Shown: piece after piece, positions 13,160 to 57,890 of the stretch
Numbering within the stretch: the stretch's first letter is position 1
Layout: each line of letters starts with the position of its first letter
From: Bacteroidia bacterium
Lineage (GTDB): Bacteria > Bacteroidota > Ignavibacteria > SZUA-365
Length of the DNA: 64,000 nt
NCBI GenBank assembly: GCA_027493955.1
Contig: JAOSJT010000001.1
Span: forward strand, 4,326,552 to 4,390,551
Reading direction: 5' to 3'
The notes under the pieces: model-generated
Told to the model about the DNA's origin: nothing
Seen by the model: only the letters and a program-made list of their open reading frames with translations
Databases searched by the model: none
Position numbers and translations under genes: made by a program

Positions 13160-13790
13160 CTTCACCCTATACTCTTCACCCTTTACCTCCCCAAGTGTCG
13201 CCCTTCCCCCCGGGCTGACGCCCGGGGTTAGAGGAAGTGTCGCCCTTCCCCCCGGGCTGACGCCCGGGGTTAGAGGAAGTGTCGCCCTTCGGGCTGATGG
13301 CGGATGTGCTGTGCGCGTGGCCCCCCGGGCTGACGCCCGGGGTTAGAGGAAGTGTCGCCTTTCGGGCTCTTCACCCTTCACCCTTTACCCTTCACCCTTT
13401 ACCTCCCCCAGGTGTCGCCCTTCCCCCGGGCTGACGCCCGGGGTTAGAGGAAGTGTCGCCCTTCGGGCTTGTCATCAGGTGGTGTGTTCGTGCGTGCCGC
13501 CCACACTGACGTGTGGGGTTTGAGGAAGTGTCGCCCTTCGGGCTCTTCACCCTTTACCCTTCACCCTTCACCCTTCACCTCCCCAAGTGTCGCCCTTCCC
13601 CCCAGGCTGACGCCCGGGGTTAGAGGAAGTGTCGCCCTTCGGGCTCTTCACTCTTCACCCTTCACCCTTTACCCTTTACCCTTCACCCTTCACCCTTCAC
13701 CCTTCACCCTTCACCCTTTACCCTTCACCCTTTACCCTTCACCCTTCACCCTTTACCCTTCACCCTTTACCCTTCACCCTTTACCTCCTC
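13160..13790. repeat. Hairpin repeat array I plus heptamer tract
   Basis: This 760-nt gap between the methyltransferase and the EamA gene is filled by about nine copies of GGAAGTGTCGCCCTTC followed by GGGCT. They alternate with a larger hairpin CCCGGGC-TGAC-GCCCGGG and, in one unit, with CCACAC-TGAC-GTGTGG, whose two arms changed together. From 13654 to 13784 it becomes a near-pure tract of the heptamers TTCACCC and TTTACCC. The same units occur in reverse orientation at 57102-57890. Frames through it encode repetitive peptides such as SPFTLYP and are not genes. Confidence 0.9.
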
Positions 13791-15883: not shown

Positions 15884-16447
15884 ATGCCCCTGACACCGTG
15901 GAAAAAAGTGAAAGAAGAAATCCTCCATGCCAATCCCTGGTGGACGTACAAACGTGACCAGGTGCTTCGCCATGATGACAGCCATGGAGAGTATCATTAT
16001 GTCGAGACACCGGGTTCTGTGATGGTAATCCCGCGCACAGCGGAAGGTGAGTTCCTTCTCGTGCGGCAGTATCGCCACCTGAATCAGCGCGAGAGCATCG
16101 AATTTCCGGCTGGCGGAGTCAAAGCGGGGCAGAGCTGGGATGCCGCCGCAAGGGCGGAACTGCGTGAAGAAGCAGGCACCACCGCGACGACACTCACGCT
16201 GATCGGCAGTTTCAACCCATTCAACGGAGTGACGAATGAAATCTGTCGGGTCTATGCAGCCAGCGGTTTGGCGGCGGTTGCAGCACAACCCGATCCATCG
16301 GAGCAATTCGAAGTCCTTGTGCTGACCGAGACCGACATTCATGCGCTGATCGCCGCCGGGGAGCTCTGGGACGGCATGTCGCTTGCCGCCTGGTCGCTGT
16401 ACCGGAACACGCAGTTCGGCGCACAATTTGTTCGTGGAGACGAATGA
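15884..16447 (+). CDS. Nudix hydrolase, ADP-ribose pyrophosphatase-like
   Basis: A 187-aa cytosolic hydrolase of the NudF/ADPRase type. The Nudix box is GGVKAGQSWDAAARAELREE followed by AG. The metal-binding ELREE core is kept, while the canonical first Glu is Gln and the Arg of RE is Ala. The preceding FLLVRQYRHLNQRESIEFPA matches ADPRases, which cleave ADP-ribose or nucleoside-diphosphate sugars. Two ATGs lie at 15878 and 15884; the second has AGAG at 7-nt spacing. Its stop overlaps the namZ start by 4 nt. The 300 nt upstream hold no gene I can support. Confidence 0.85.
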   Translation: MPLTPWKKVKEEILHANPWWTYKRDQVLRHDDSHGEYHYVETPGSVMVIPRTAEGEFLLVRQYRHLNQRESIEFPAGGVKAGQSWDAAARAELREEAGTTATTLTLIGSFNPFNGVTNEICRVYAASGLAAVAAQPDPSEQFEVLVLTETDIHALIAAGELWDGMSLAAWSLYRNTQFGAQFVRGDE

Positions 16448-17724
16448 CGACACGACGACGACCGACCCATGGATGTCCTCTTCGCACGGTACTCACGGTC
16501 GCAGTGCTGCTGCCGATTTTCGCCGGGAGCGCGGCAGCGCAACAGGCACCATCACGTGGTGGTGACCCTGCGGTTGTCTGTGGCGCGGATGTTCTTATCC
16601 GGGACTCGCTGCATCTGTGCCGCGGAAAACGCGTCGGCGTCATCACCAATCACACGGGAGTGCTGGGAGACGGCACGCTGTTGATCGACCGCTTGCGGCG
16701 GGAAGAGGGAGTGACGCTTGCGGCAATATTCAGTCCGGAGCACGGCCCGAACGGTTCCGCACCCGATGGCGCGTTTATTGCGGACGGAAAGGACGGCGAT
16801 GTGAAGGTGTATTCACTGTACGGTACAGTACGCAAGCCGACGGCAGGTATGCTGGAGGGACTCGATGTCCTGCTGTATGATCTGCAGGACGCCGGGTCAC
16901 GATACTATACCTACATCTCAACCCTCGCGTTGTGCCTGGAAGCGGCCGCCGGGGCCGGCATACCTCTCGTGGTGCTGGACAGACCCAATCCGCTCGGAGG
17001 AGAAATGATCGAGGGACCGCTCCGCCGTGAAGGTATGCAGTCATTCGTCGGGATGCTGCCCGTTCCCGTCAGGCACGGGATGACGGCAGGTGAGTTGGCG
17101 TCCATGATGATCGCGGAGGGGTGGATTCGTGCTTCCGGGGTGAAGCTGCACGTCATTCCCATGCGCGGTTGGAGTCGGTCCATGTATTACGAAGAAACGG
17201 GTCTGCGCTGGCTGCCACCGTCACCGAATCTCCGGACGGTTGAGGCGGCGCTCGCATACGCCGGCACCTGTCTGCTGGAGGGCAGCGCAATCAGCGAGGG
17301 GCGTGGAACGGATGCGCCCTTCCTGCAGTTTGGCGCGCCGTTTATCGATGGAGAAGAGGTCGCGGAGGCCTTGACCGTCCTGGGACTTCCCGGGGTGCGC
17401 TTCCATGCTGTGACCTTTACTCCTAAGGCAGACCACGGAAGCGCGCGACCAAAATTCGCGGGTGTGCCATGCTTCGGGATACGGCTGCATGTAACCGATC
17501 GGAAACTGTTCCGTCCTTTTGAAACCGGAAGAAAAATTCTGTCCGTGTTGCACCATCTCTATGGTGAAAGAATGGTGTTCACGTCGTATCTTGACAGTCT
17601 TGCTGGTGTGGCGGATTTTGCGGACCGCTGTGTGCGAATCCCTCCCGTATCGAATGAATGCGACTGGACCGAAGAGATTCGAGACTTCTTCCACCGCCGT
17701 ACCGGCTATCTGCTCTACCACTGA
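16444..17724 (+). CDS. namZ: NamZ-type exo-beta-N-acetylmuramidase (DUF1343)
   Basis: A 426-aa exported peptidoglycan-recycling enzyme that removes terminal MurNAc from muropeptides (family knowledge: B. subtilis NamZ/YbbC). An N-terminal signal peptide (VLTVAVLLPIFAGSAAAQ) is followed by the family motifs GVITNHTG, IFSPEHGPNG, LLYDLQDAGSRYYTYI, VVLDRPNPLGG and SPNLRTVEAALAYAGTCLLEG. The C-terminal segment (FRPFETGRKILSVLHHLYGE) is also typical. Its ATG overlaps the stop of the Nudix gene. The next lipoprotein follows after 18 nt, suggesting an envelope-linked operon from 13872 to 19612. Confidence 0.93.
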   Translation: MTTRRRPTHGCPLRTVLTVAVLLPIFAGSAAAQQAPSRGGDPAVVCGADVLIRDSLHLCRGKRVGVITNHTGVLGDGTLLIDRLRREEGVTLAAIFSPEHGPNGSAPDGAFIADGKDGDVKVYSLYGTVRKPTAGMLEGLDVLLYDLQDAGSRYYTYISTLALCLEAAAGAGIPLVVLDRPNPLGGEMIEGPLRREGMQSFVGMLPVPVRHGMTAGELASMMIAEGWIRASGVKLHVIPMRGWSRSMYYEETGLRWLPPSPNLRTVEAALAYAGTCLLEGSAISEGRGTDAPFLQFGAPFIDGEEVAEALTVLGLPGVRFHAVTFTPKADHGSARPKFAGVPCFGIRLHVTDRKLFRPFETGRKILSVLHHLYGERMVFTSYLDSLAGVADFADRCVRIPPVSNECDWTEEIRDFFHRRTGYLLYH

Positions 17725-17742: not shown

Positions 17743-18822
17743 ATGCGACGATCACTGCATCTTTTATTGTTCAGTATGCTGTTGCTTGCCTGTTCTTCCT
17801 GTCGTCACCATGCGGAAGACGCCCCCGGCAATACGGATAGTACCGTCGTACAGTCCGAGGTTCTTCCGCAGGATGAACAGGGGACGGCGGTGCGTCTCGA
17901 CGATCCGCTGGTGCTTACGTACCGGTTTACGAAAGGCGAGAGCTTCGCTTATCAGATCCGGAAGAAGGAAAGTCTGTCCATGTTCCGGGATTCGCTGCTC
18001 GATGAGAAGAATGATGTAACGATCACCCGCTGGTACACCTTCAAAGTGCTGGAATCGCATTCGCAGGGAGGGGGACGTTTGCTCGCCGAATGCGTCCGCG
18101 TTCTCTATGACGGCCAGTACAGCGGGCCGTCGGGCAAACGGGAAATGAAATACGATTCGCGCGAGAACAACGCGCCAAACACGGAGCGATTGCTGTCCGA
18201 ATTCAACGCCCCTGTAGGTCATCCCTTCGAGGTTGTGGTTGCACCCGATGGCCGCATCGCAGCCGTGGAGAAACTGGATGCGGTGATACGGAACTATATG
18301 AAAGAGGACTACGCCACCACCAAATCCGATCAGATCAAGGCGATCACGCAGGATTACGCCCAAACGGGGATAAAAAGCGTGCTGCAGCTCGTGTTTCAGA
18401 AATTGCATGACAAGCCGGTCGCGCAGGATTCCTCATGGGTCATCATCAATGCGCGGAAGCTCGGCTACCTGAGTTTGCGTGACGACGCGGTGTACACTTT
18501 TCATGGCATCACGGGCGCCGAACTTGGAAAACTTGCGCATATCGGCGTGCGACTCACCTCCACGTACACCGGGAATCCTTCCTTCGACACGGGACAGGGC
18601 TGGGCAACAATGAAGGATTTCGACATCGCCGGTGTTGGACGAACGTCCTTCAATCTGGACAAAGGTCGTGTCCATCGCCGCAGCATCTCGAATTCGGTCT
18701 TCGTCAATATGTTCGTGGAACCACCGGAGGAACTGAAGCGCCTTGCTCCGGACCAGGCACGTAACCATTGGTGGTCGCAAAAGGCCGTAACCGAAGACAA
18801 CATCGAGCCCTACCAGCCCTGA
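17743..18822 (+). CDS. Lipoprotein of unknown function
   Basis: A 359-aa protein with a lipoprotein signal (LLLFSMLLLACSSC; lipobox near LLAC). The mature part contains a Y-x-F-x-x-G-E-x-x-x-Y strand (LTYRFTKGESFAYQI) and a repeated beta pattern that resembles families described only as DUF6263-like; this assignment is weak. The acidic and polar linker after the Cys (EDAPGNTDSTVVQSE) is typical of surface lipoproteins. It lies 18 nt after namZ and 20 nt before the HisA-like gene. Confidence 0.75.
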   Translation: MRRSLHLLLFSMLLLACSSCRHHAEDAPGNTDSTVVQSEVLPQDEQGTAVRLDDPLVLTYRFTKGESFAYQIRKKESLSMFRDSLLDEKNDVTITRWYTFKVLESHSQGGGRLLAECVRVLYDGQYSGPSGKREMKYDSRENNAPNTERLLSEFNAPVGHPFEVVVAPDGRIAAVEKLDAVIRNYMKEDYATTKSDQIKAITQDYAQTGIKSVLQLVFQKLHDKPVAQDSSWVIINARKLGYLSLRDDAVYTFHGITGAELGKLAHIGVRLTSTYTGNPSFDTGQGWATMKDFDIAGVGRTSFNLDKGRVHRRSISNSVFVNMFVEPPEELKRLAPDQARNHWWSQKAVTEDNIEPYQP

Positions 18823-18841: not shown

Positions 18842-19612
18842 ATGAAACGCATCGCGGACAGGACGCTCATCATCCCTACGATCCGGCTTCGGGATGGCCG
18901 CTGCTGCCAGGTGCCTGTCGGTGAACCGGGAACCGAGGCCGCCTATCCGTCGGATCCCGCGGAACAGGCGGTTCTGTGGCGCCACGAGAACATGAAGATG
19001 CTGCATGTCATCGCCGAAGAATCCGCGGAGTGTACTCTGGAACAGCAGGTGCCGTTGCTGCAGCGCATCATCAACGCAGTCGAAATCTCGATTCAGGTCG
19101 AAGCACAATTTATGAGCGATATGGACTTTGTGCTCCTTTTTGAGCAGACCGGCGCCTATCGCGCTGTTCTGGACGAGAACCTGTCCGCGAATTTGGACCG
19201 GGTAGCGCATTTGATCGGCCGCTTCGGTCCGCGGAAAATCGTACCGTCGCTTCGCATCCGGCACGAGGCGACGACGGCGGACAGGGGGCCGCAGGAGGAT
19301 GAAAGCGCCCTGCTACGGCAGGCCGAACAGCTCGCCGCCTGCGGTGTCGAACGTATCGTCATGGACGCGCGTCAAATTTCTTCTGGTCCCCCCATTCACA
19401 GTTTGCTTTCCCTCGTCGAACGAGCTAACTTGTCGGTTACGCTGAACGGTTCCGTTCGCGGTTTCCAGGATCTGAAGCTACTGTATCCACTTCGAGACAA
19501 GCGAATCGATTCCATTATTATGGAAAATGCGCTATATTCAAATGCTTTTCCGTGTCAGAAGATCTGGAGGCAGGCGGAACAGCAATTGGTCGTCCGGAAC
19601 GAACCACTCTAG
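18842..19612 (+). CDS. HisA-like TIM-barrel pseudoenzyme
   Basis: A 256-aa protein that aligns by eye along its whole length with HisA (ProFAR isomerase): LIIPTIRLRDG with IIPAIDLxDG, YPSDPAEQAVLWRHENMKML and the HV of LHVVD, the DLKLL segment near SSGGI, and SIIMENALYSNAF with VIVGKALYEG. The residues that matter are gone: the first catalytic Asp is Arg (TIRL), the VQVGGGIR phosphate loop is IQVEAQFM, the second Asp region reads VPSLRIR, and TDIxRDGTLxGxN reads MDARQISSGPP. It cannot be a working histidine-pathway isomerase. There is no his operon around it; it closes a run of envelope genes. The role is unknown. Confidence 0.72.
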   Translation: MKRIADRTLIIPTIRLRDGRCCQVPVGEPGTEAAYPSDPAEQAVLWRHENMKMLHVIAEESAECTLEQQVPLLQRIINAVEISIQVEAQFMSDMDFVLLFEQTGAYRAVLDENLSANLDRVAHLIGRFGPRKIVPSLRIRHEATTADRGPQEDESALLRQAEQLAACGVERIVMDARQISSGPPIHSLLSLVERANLSVTLNGSVRGFQDLKLLYPLRDKRIDSIIMENALYSNAFPCQKIWRQAEQQLVVRNEPL

Positions 19613-19720: not shown

Positions 19721-19868
19721 ATAACTCCAATGTTTTCAACGACTTCCGGGCCCTTACCATCGCCGACGCCTCCTCCTCCGGGACAAAATCCCGCATGAAC
19801 CCGGATCCGACAGAAAAAATATCGACAAACTGGTTTCTTTACTTTGGTCATTGTTATCAGGTGTGCTT

Positions 19869-20657
19869 ATGAGATTAACCGTCCTGCGATCTTGTGTTTT
19901 GATCGCAAGCCTGCTGCTCGTGTCATCAATCGGGTTGGCACAGACCGTCTACAGCCCTGACGTCTCGCGCGTTTTCGTCAGTGGTTTCATGGGGTTGAAC
20001 CACAATACAAACATGGGTGATTTCAAGACGGACTGCGACTGTCTTTTCGAGGGCAGCTTCGGTCTCGGGAATGTCGGGGCCATTATCGGTGCCGACATCA
20101 CATACGCCTGGTCGCCGTCATGGGCCGTTATGGCCAAGGTGTATTACGACAACAAGCACACGCGCGAGTCCTATGAGCGCGAGATCTCTACCCCCATTGC
20201 CACCGGCCAGCAGGTCATCGTCAACGGTGTGAATTACGAGGAAATTGGAGATGTCAGTCTCTCGTATTTCACGGTCGGACTGTTCGGTCGCTGGCAGCCG
20301 CGCCTCGCGCGCTGGTATGTGTTCGCCGGGCCCACTGTCGGACTTGCGGTGGCGTCGCAGGTGCAACACAATCAGGAAATCGTCGATCCGGATCTCTCGT
20401 ATCGTGAATTGCTGGATACCAAGCGCCAGGTGTCCACTGGAGATTTCGACGGCACGCTTCGTCTCGAGGCGAGTGTCGGTTTCGGGTATGATTATATAAT
20501 TCGCCCGCGCTGGTACGTCAACCCTGAAATCAGGGTCGGCTACCCGTTGACAAAAATCACCGACACGATCAATGACCGCAACAAGAGTATTCCTATCGAT
20601 GACTGGAAAGTCATGTCGGTACAACTCTCTATCGGTCTGAAGTACGAAGCATTCTAA
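19869..20657 (+). CDS. Outer-membrane beta-barrel protein
   Basis: A 262-aa protein with signal peptide MRLTVLRSCVLIASLLLV and cleavage near GLAQ. The mature chain alternates aromatic-ended beta strands (VGAIIGADITYAWSP, WAVMAKVYYDN, YFTVGLFGRWQPRLARWYVF, YIIRPRWYVNPEIRVGYPL) and ends in a typical outer-membrane strand (VQLSIGLKYEAF, terminal Phe). It is OmpW/porin-like in size, or could be a PorP/SprF-like partner of the next gene; the family cannot be fixed. The ATG at 19869 follows AGGTG. It is the first gene of the surface operon, 34 nt before the PD40-OmpA gene. Confidence 0.8.
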   Translation: MRLTVLRSCVLIASLLLVSSIGLAQTVYSPDVSRVFVSGFMGLNHNTNMGDFKTDCDCLFEGSFGLGNVGAIIGADITYAWSPSWAVMAKVYYDNKHTRESYEREISTPIATGQQVIVNGVNYEEIGDVSLSYFTVGLFGRWQPRLARWYVFAGPTVGLAVASQVQHNQEIVDPDLSYRELLDTKRQVSTGDFDGTLRLEASVGFGYDYIIRPRWYVNPEIRVGYPLTKITDTINDRNKSIPIDDWKVMSVQLSIGLKYEAF

Positions 20658-42118: not shown

Positions 42119-42246
42119 GGTATCCTCATGTGGTAGATCTTTGGAAGAGCTGTTCCTCCGGACATTCTCAAAGTTACCGATTCGCTCCGGTAAAGGCAAG
42201 GGAATTACCATTGCAGGCGCCTGAAACCCATTGCATGACAGATACT

Positions 42247-42740
42247 CCGCCTCAATCCGTGACATCCGCGTACCCCATCCGCAGATTGGGCGATACATGA
42301 ATCGCCCAATTCTGGAAGCAGCGGCGGCGCCCGGCGTTTTCTTCGATAAAAGCGCCGCGAAAATCCGCCTCAATCCGTGACATCCGCGTACCCCATCCGC
42401 AGATTGGGCGATACATGAATCGCCCATTTTGGAAGCAGCGGCTGCGCCCGGCGTTTCCTTCGAGTAAAGCGCCGCGAAAATCCGCCTCAATCCGTGACAT
42501 CCGCGTACCCCATCTGCAGATTGGGCGATACATGAATCGCCCAATTCTGGAAACAGCGGCTGCGCCCGGCGTTTCCTTCGAGTAAAGCGCCGCGAAAATC
42601 CGCCTCAATCCGTGACATCCGCGTACCCCATCCGCAGATTGGGCGATACATGAATCGCCCTATTCTGGAAGCAGCGGCGGCGCCCGGCGTTTCCTTCGAG
42701 TAAAGCGCCGCGAAAATCCGCTTTAATCCGTCTGATCCCC
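42247..42740. repeat. 118-bp tandem repeat, four units plus a partial one
   Basis: Units start at 42247, 42365, 42482 and 42600 and fade at 42718. Each contains two hairpins: ATTGGGCGAT-ACATGA-ATCGCCCAAT, a 10-bp stem, and GCGGCGC ... GCGCCGC around a T/A-rich loop. Units differ at a few bases only. The array fills the gap between the divergent TPR and rel genes. The open frames through it arise because the unit length is close to a multiple of three; there is no start or codon bias. Confidence 0.9.
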
Positions 42741-57101: not shown

Positions 57102-57890
57102 AGAGTACAGAGTGAAGAGCCCGAAGGGCGACACTTGGGGAGGTAAAGGGTGAAGAGGAAAGGGTGAAGGGTAAAGGGTAAAGGGTGAAGGGTGAAGGGT
57201 GAAGGGTGAAGAGTGAAGAGCCCGAAGGGCGTCACTTCCTCTAACCCCGGGCGTCAGCCCGGGGGGCCACGCGCACAGCATATCCGCCATCAGCCCGAAG
57301 GGCGACACTTCCTCTAACCCCGGGCGTCAGCCCGGGGGGCCACGCGCACAGCACATCCGCCATCAGCCCGAAGGGCGACACTTGGGGAGGTAAAGGGTGA
57401 AGAGTAAAGAGTGAAGAGCCCGAAGGGCGACACTTGGGGAGGTAAAGGGTGAAGAGTAAAGAGTGAAGAGCCCGAAGGGCGAGACTTCCCCTAACCCCAC
57501 ACGTCAGTGTGGGTGGCACGCATACACACACCACATGATGACAAGCCCGAAGGGCGTCACTTCCTCTAACCCCGGGCGTCAGCCCGAGGGGCCACGCGCA
57601 CAGCACATCCGCCATCAGCCCGAAGGGCGACACTTCCTCTAACCCCGGGCGTCAGCCCGAGGGGCCACGCGCACAGCACATCCGCCATCAGCCCGAAGGG
57701 CGACACTTCCTCTAACCCCGGGCGTCAGCCCGGGGGCCACGCGCACAGCACATCCGCCATCAGCCCGAAGGGCGACACTTCCTCTAACCCCGGGCGTCAG
57801 CCCGGGCCACGCGCACAGCACATCCGCCATCAGCCCGAAGGGCGACACTTCCTCTGACCCTCAGGGGCCCCCGAAGGCCGACACTTCCTC
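57102..57890. repeat. Hairpin repeat array II (reverse orientation of array I)
   Basis: About twelve copies of AGCCCGAAGGGCGACACTTC, many in a 73-nt unit with CCCGGGC-GTCA-GCCCGGG and a constant GCGCACAGCACATCCGCCAT. One unit near 57495 has CCCACAC-GTCA-GTGTGGG instead. A GGGTGAA/GGGTAAA heptamer tract lies at 57143-57218. The 968 nt from the IS to the next gene hold only this array, then 180 nt with a TCTCAA/TTGAGA hairpin (near 57912) and no gene. Confidence 0.9.

Follow-up and report, generated by a model that had tools for sequence, protein, structure and literature searches.

A putative HisA-derived pseudoenzyme retained in Ignavibacteria after loss of the histidine pathway

The HisA-like gene and its locus

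The stretch of DNA analysed here, referred to as the window, comprises 64,000 nucleotides of contig JAOSJT010000001.1 (positions 4,326,552 to 4,390,551, forward strand) in assembly GCA_027493955.1, a Bacteroidia bacterium placed by GTDB in the class Ignavibacteria, lineage SZUA-365. At 18842..19612 on the + strand it carries an intact reading frame for a protein of 256 residues that is related to the histidine enzyme HisA. Profile searches, an AlphaFold2 model and structure matches point to a HisA-derived pseudoenzyme with a predicted (beta-alpha)8 barrel. We found that the histidine pathway is absent from this bacterium, that the catalytic residues of the protein are lost, that the gene is under purifying selection in relatives, and that conservation within its own family lies away from the active site.

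The protein matches positions 2-227 of the 228 in the PF00977 (His_biosynth) profile (E 2.5e-19, 70.1 bits, cut-off 23.6), and its score against TIGR00007 (HisA), 74.9 bits, falls below the equivalog cut-off of 228.95; it is therefore a relative of HisA and not a normal HisA. By sequence its nearest solved relatives are HisA/PriA enzymes (1vzw, E 1.5e-14). The AlphaFold2 model, for which 63 family sequences served as input, has a mean predicted local distance difference test score (pLDDT) of 88.1 and a predicted template modelling score (pTM) of 0.87. Its top Foldseek match is a Streptomyces HisA-type enzyme (E 1.4e-14), and VIA-align ranks the subHisA structure 4axk_B best (Z 24.3, 219 residues aligned, 2.5 A). 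An initial annotation of this DNA had stated that the whole barrel aligns with HisA; both the profile match and the superposition, which it had proposed as a check and which gave a clear match, bear this out. Chance resemblance is excluded by the E-value, the fold and the presence of the family in 54 genomes.

The same annotation held that no catalytic or phosphate-binding residue was left in the protein. In the alignment R15 (18884..18886, +) stands at the strand-1 catalytic Asp position, which we take to be D8 in the numbering of T. maritima HisA, and R138 (19253..19255, +) stands at the strand-5 Asp position. E87-A88-Q89 (19100..19108, +) replace the GGG phosphate loop, and MDARQISSG (19361..19387, +) replaces TDIxRDGT, with the second catalytic Asp absent; when the protein is aligned with its relatives the RDG position is without Asp, and the beta-8 Gly position is E228. 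The replacements at the Asp positions, the GGG loop and the TDIxRDGT loop are as first described, but the claim went too far in that two binding-site residues are retained: G203 in the beta-7 loop, the only residue left of the phosphate-binding glycine loops, and D175, which adjoins the position of the TD threonine. The available part of PMC13055916 assigns catalysis in PriA of M. tuberculosis to Asp11, on strand 1, and Asp175, of the RDG motif, and the Salmonella HisA mutants D7 and D176 named in PDB titles agree with this pair as catalytic. The window protein has lost the strand-1, RDG and strand-5 Asp alike, and because the RDG Asp is a catalytic residue, the loss of the active site is more complete than had been stated.

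The genome is a single contig of 5.24 Mb, rated 100% complete, and contains no normal hisA elsewhere, as the initial annotation had suggested checking. The window gene is its sole full-length His_biosynth match and its sole barrel of the HisA/HisF type; the other two PF00977 matches over the cut-off were considered and rejected as a normal HisA, one being a Dus protein and the other a nitronate monooxygenase. Neither HisD, HisG nor HisF was found in the complete genome, and TrpF and TrpC were found neither there nor in its order. The entire histidine pathway is absent, which goes beyond what was first noted.

The neighbours of the gene, all on the + strand, agree with the initial description of an envelope gene run after namZ and outside any his operon. 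Upstream lie a NamZ exo-N-acetylmuramidase gene with NamZ_N and NamZ_C domains (16444..17724) and, directly before the HisA-like gene with a gap of 19 bp, a DUF6263 lipoprotein gene (17743..18822). Downstream are an outer-membrane beta-barrel gene (19851..20657) and a PD40-OmpA gene. The NamZ, DUF6263 and outer-membrane barrel neighbours are kept in the order. Among the window neighbours no hisH adjoins the gene.

Elsewhere in the window, 13193-13785 and 57142-57860 hold a dispersed intergenic repeat family with heptamer arrays, CTTCACC in 20 copies at 13646-13785 and its reverse complement GGTGAAG in 11 copies at 57142-57218. Each array adjoins GC-rich unit copies with AAGTGTCGCCCTTC or its complement, in opposite orientations. 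Positions 42246-42731, also outside the HisA-like locus, contain a 118-base unit in tandem (4.1 copies, 95% matches).

The family across the class and the loss of the his operon

In a set of 61 genomes, consisting of the genome under study and 60 relatives, the window protein finds matches in 57. Scores identify the matches in G018, G028 and G054 as canonical HisA, which leaves 54 genomes with a family member; retention of HisA is characteristic of the class as a whole. HisD and HisG are present in the same 15 genomes. Family members occur in 41 of the 46 genomes without HisD; among the 15 with HisD, four (G021, G031, G040, G053) have a family member adjoining hisF, nine have one beside a canonical HisA-HisF pair, and two are without. 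One genome, G041, encodes a canonical HisA with HisF, HisD and HisG, plus a family member 27 kb off.

The pattern NxF[PS]CQx[IL]WR, searched over 84,980 species, gave 343 stretches, 326 of them encoding a relative. The 80 listed loci come mostly from records labelled Ignavibacteria, Ignavibacteriae, Melioribacter(aceae), Bacteroidetes, Kapaibacterium and Kryptonia, with few other labels. One locus in a record labelled Kryptonium (L170) carries a family member, and histidine synthesis is described as lost in Kryptonia in the available part of PMC4737851. A record titled Ectothiorhodospiraceae bacterium (L120) has the NamZ-DUF6263-HisA context of the window's own order, and its name is for that reason probably wrong.

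HisA proteins from other classes of the phylum belong to the same lineage, and their genomes mostly give a second, HisF-type match. According to the excerpts of PMC8305728, Chlorobi and Rhodothermota have a HisA with a longer C-terminus, and Ignavibacterium album and Melioribacter roseus have a shorter, probably transferred HisA; those excerpts make no mention of a second HisA in either of the latter two species.

Several sets of sequences underlie the comparisons that follow. The G set took in 52 of the 54 family-positive genomes (without G014 and G042) and 51 after the contig-cut G022 was dropped, the A2 set 62 of the 80 loci plus P0001, and the tree set of 103 rows 28 of the 80 loci, with G038 and G056 left out. 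Canonical HisA were represented by 8 of 11 loci, as three gave no match. Both the A2 set and the 80 loci were gathered with the helix 8 motif as bait, and the invariance of that motif was therefore taken from the G set. The groups used for residue and entropy comparisons were chosen by us from gene context and the tree.

Presence of the catalytic pair follows the company that the gene keeps. In the 103-row set the strand-1 Asp and the RDG Asp are both present in all 15 class members beside hisB, hisH, hisF or hisI, in 13/13 HisA of other classes and in 8/8 canonical HisA, i.e. in 36 of 36 rows of the working type, and in none of the 67 stand-alone members. When sequences were picked by similarity alone, both were found in four of four hisF-adjacent members and in 0/47 others, of which 38 are in HisD-negative genomes and nine stand beside a canonical HisA. 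The strand-1 and strand-5 Asp are both kept in 18 of 51 members; once the RDG Asp is counted, only the four hisF-adjacent members are intact.

Judged from the sequences, the inactivating changes differ between groups and are fixed by clade. The strand-1 Asp is His in 9 of the 10 core members of the window's own family and Arg in the window protein, and it is Glu in 13/13 members of a group found beside PfkB. The RDG Asp has become Asn in 14/14 members of a group found beside a cNMP-binding gene, Val in 6/6 of another group and Glu in 8/10 of yet another. On the tree the minimum number of changes is four for the catalytic pair, six for the strand-1 Asp and five for the RDG Asp, and these counts are rough lower bounds because the tree is quick and unrooted with 29 open forks and long branches, L009 and the window protein among them.

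Removal of the his operon around hisA is directly visible in the PfkB-RfbD clade. Eight of nine listed his-operon loci read HisB-(HisH)-HisA-HisF-HisI-PfkB-RfbD-(next gene)-SerS; HisH was not called in L123, and L130 shows no PfkB. Of the 15 loci listed for the sister group, 14 have RfbD after HisA-PfkB (L145 is the one without RfbD), and three loci (L121, L146, L178) lack any his gene and read HisA-PfkB-RfbD-SerS. On the tree the his-operon clade encloses the 13-row stand-alone group, with support in the Shimodaira-Hasegawa approximate likelihood ratio test (SH-aLRT) of 96 for the 26-row clade and 100 for the group. Gene order and nesting together indicate that the his genes on both sides were removed and that hisA stayed. 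For the window's order the same loss is probable by analogy.

Gene contexts vary between groups: NamZ-DUF6263-outer-membrane protein in the window's order, PfkB-RfbD in another, and cNMP_binding-Usp in 27 of 81 loci. In the last of these (L143, L160, L167 and 24 more loci) the HisA-like gene is followed after almost no gap by a gene for a cNMP-binding domain and then by a Usp gene, a possible signalling operon. No domain fusion was seen among the long reading frames, which were inspected by eye. The envelope neighbours in the window's order offer a lead to the process involved and other orders differ; since the envelope context is kept within the order and not outside it, an envelope function does not follow.

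Selection, the opposite face and the possible role of the protein

Pairs of degenerate relatives gave Nei-Gojobori ratios of nonsynonymous to synonymous divergence (omega) of 0.152 (G002/G005), 0.096 (G013/G015), 0.115 (G027/G045) and 0.175 (G024/G051), with further own-family pairs up to 0.37 at high synonymous divergence (dS); the reading frames used extend a few codons upstream of the start, and some pairs have a high dS. The proposal in the initial annotation that an intact frame with a rewritten active site implies a kept non-enzymatic or new function is favoured by the structural match, the lack of another HisA and the intact orthologues under purifying selection. A protein with an enzyme fold, without catalytic residues and kept by selection, here estimated from relatives, would by its sequence be classed as a pseudoenzyme.

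In the window's own family, conservation has moved from the catalytic face to helices 1 and 8 and to the opposite face of the barrel, the latter defined by strand positions in the AlphaFold2 model. Divided by the protein mean, entropy in the ten genomes of this family is 1.6 to 1.8 for catalytic-side loops 2-6, 0.77 for loop 1 and 0.38-0.42 for loops 7-8; the opposite side has a value of 0.41 and helix 8 one of 0.38. The corresponding values in his-operon relatives are 0.30-1.08 in loops 2-6, 0.88 in loop 1, 0.84 in loop 7 and 0.19 in loop 8, with 0.88 for the opposite side and 0.92 for helix 8. The shift between faces in the own family gave p 7e-10 when tested against his-operon relatives and 1.4e-11 when other classes were the reference, and the PfkB group shows it as well (p 5.5e-9); since the sequences within a group are related and not independent of one another, these p-values serve as a guide only. 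The window protein and its nine relatives are 24-32% identical on the catalytic side; for helices 1 and 8 together with the opposite side, identity rises to 61-69%. Relaxed, random change among orthologues, which the initial annotation had set against a kept function, is seen in part of the own-family catalytic face, namely beta-alpha loops 2-6. It does not hold for helices 1 and 8 or for the opposite face.

Twelve residues, P39, R47, E49, N50, R107, R171, D223, S224, F236, C238, W242 and E246, occur in 51 of 51 members. R47, E49 and N50 lie with K52 and H55 where the end of helix 1 runs into strand 2 (18980..19006, +), in the conserved second face. D223-S224 (19508..19513, +), at the start of strand 8 by the model, is predicted to lie with R107 and R171 on the side opposite the active site. 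The helix 8 motif NAFPCQKIWRQAE (N234 to E246; 19541..19579, +) includes F236, C238, W242 and E246 of this set, as well as R243, present in 50/51. The eight canonical HisA are without most of the invariant set, sharing P39 and mostly R107, so these residues are not needed for the reaction. We considered the helix 8 motif as a new gain and rejected this, as it is common to HisA of other classes of the phylum; a longer C-terminus is also described in the available part of PMC8305728.

The explanation that we favour is that the window protein probably descends from the HisA of this bacterium itself, is catalytically dead and now acts as a non-enzymatic partner or scaffold through its opposite face. 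The lineage lacks the histidine pathway and keeps a descendant of hisA, and the active site has been destroyed, while purifying selection has continued to act on the fold, on helices 1 and 8 and on the opposite face. The opposite face may bind another protein. This job would predate the loss, with the Chlorobi-type HisA holding it alongside catalysis, and the gene would have outlived the pathway because of it. More tentatively, as an idea that may well hold but that we rate below the first, HisA of Chlorobi, Ignavibacteria and Rhodothermota had an ancient histidine-independent second job on the opposite face and helices 1 and 8 that alone kept the gene, with catalysis lost repeatedly by different substitutions and pseudoenzymes spread class-wide, perhaps in several hundred species.

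Several points weigh against the partner or scaffold explanation. No partner, phenotype or complex is known, and no shared neighbour naming a partner was found; the neighbours differ between orders, so gene context names none. The omega values come from relatives and not from the window gene itself. Groups that lost only the RDG Asp show a weak face shift or none (p 0.067 and 0.0056 in the cNMP-binding group, 0.1 and 0.08 in f7/f15). Residues E49 and R243 covary, with E-R in 82 of 95 rows, 12 rows (11 with Gln, one with Met) without Arg, and one row E-A, which by sequence suggests a contact between helix 1 and helix 8 within the molecule, and some of the conserved residues may do no more than stabilise the fold. 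Finally, the own family keeps a rewritten beta-7 loop (NGSVR), and its catalytic face is thus not wholly free.

That loop bears on the first alternative, an active site rebuilt into that of a new enzyme or a ligand binder on the HisA barrel, which we consider unlikely. The own family conserves H15 (R15 in the window protein), N202-G203-S204-V205-R206 and D228-E229 (E228 and N229 in the window protein), unlike HisA, and its loops 2-6 vary, in contrast to the conserved loops 7 and 8, whose entropy is 0.38 and 0.42 of the mean. Yet of the positions at which its nine relatives are invariant, the window protein alters 7 of 16 on the catalytic face, against 9 of 40 on the other face (p 0.19, not significant), and the replacements at catalytic positions vary between stand-alone lineages.

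Somewhat less likely again is a ligand sensor, whose ancestor would have bound a phosphoribosyl compound and signalled via the opposite face; some lineages would still bind, and the window lineage would have lost binding and be fixed permanently in one state. The cNMP-binding/Usp group fits this idea in keeping the strand-1 and strand-5 Asp in 14/14, the Thr in 13/14 and mostly intact GGG loops among those listed, with Asn at the RDG Asp in 14/14, and HisA D7N/D176A still crystallises with ProFAR (PDB title 5a5w). However, HisG, the start of the route to the substrate, is present in only 15 of 61 genomes, and no ligand is known.

The view that the gene is a useless relic in slow decay, its conservation due to folding constraint only, can appeal to the variable own-family loops 2-6, but it is very improbable given the presence of the family in 54 of 61 genomes across the class, omega of 0.10-0.18 in four pairs, and retention of the gene while the his operon was removed on both sides. 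That the protein still works as a histidine or tryptophan isomerase (subTrpF), as PriA kept in this manner does in Actinomyces (available part of PMC5404923), is scarcely credible with all active-site Asp lost and no TrpC or TrpF in the genome or its order; across the 61 genomes TrpC is present in 17 and TrpF in 19, and the subTrpF identity was rejected. In another genome, G058, TrpC (IGPS) is present and no TrpF was found at E 1e-5; the HisA-like protein there, with the RDG Asp kept and Glu at strand 1, is a possible substitute TrpF.

Relation to known systems

Enzymes kept after gene loss are already known, as with PriA (available part of PMC5404923), and so are pseudoenzymes in general; new here is a HisA that has been inactivated repeatedly across a whole lineage and in which a second face is conserved. 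We found no description of this HisA-derived family in the titles or opening lines of abstracts listed for HisA/PriA gene loss, HisA moonlighting, histidine in Ignavibacterium/Kapabacteria and TIM-barrel pseudoenzymes. In effect nature has run one experiment repeatedly here: a textbook enzyme gives up its reaction, yet the reason for keeping it remains. Provided that the second job is real, it should also be found in HisA of green sulfur bacteria. Some green sulfur bacteria are open to genetic manipulation, and a hidden function of a core metabolic enzyme would thereby become testable. The family also carries a warning for annotation, as such genes can be read as 'hisA' and so provide false evidence of a histidine pathway that is absent.

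Among known proteins, HisA (TIGR00007) of the Chlorobi-Rhodothermota type, with its extended C-terminus (available part of PMC8305728), shares its barrel with the window protein, and HisA of other classes shares R47, N50, R171, D223, S224, F236, C238 and W242 (13/13 rows). Unlike HisA, the window protein has no catalytic Asp and no GGG loop, scores below the equivalog cut-off, and belongs to a genome without his genes. PriA of Actinomycetaceae, as SubHisA2/SubTrpF, resembles the window gene in being a phosphoribosyl isomerase kept after his/trp loss; it has measured enzyme activity and relaxed selection, whereas the window family has lost its catalytic residues and has its other face under stronger selection (PMC5404923, in the part available). 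AdeK, a PriA-derived protein of nucleoside antibiotic clusters, is likewise a HisA fold outside histidine synthesis, but it has kept HisA activity and is located in a biosynthetic cluster (PMC13055916, in excerpt). HisF, the imidazole glycerol phosphate synthase, shares superfamily and fold with the window protein (Z about 22.7) at 12-15% identity, and no hisH is found at the window gene. HisF binds HisH on the barrel face that lies away from its active site.
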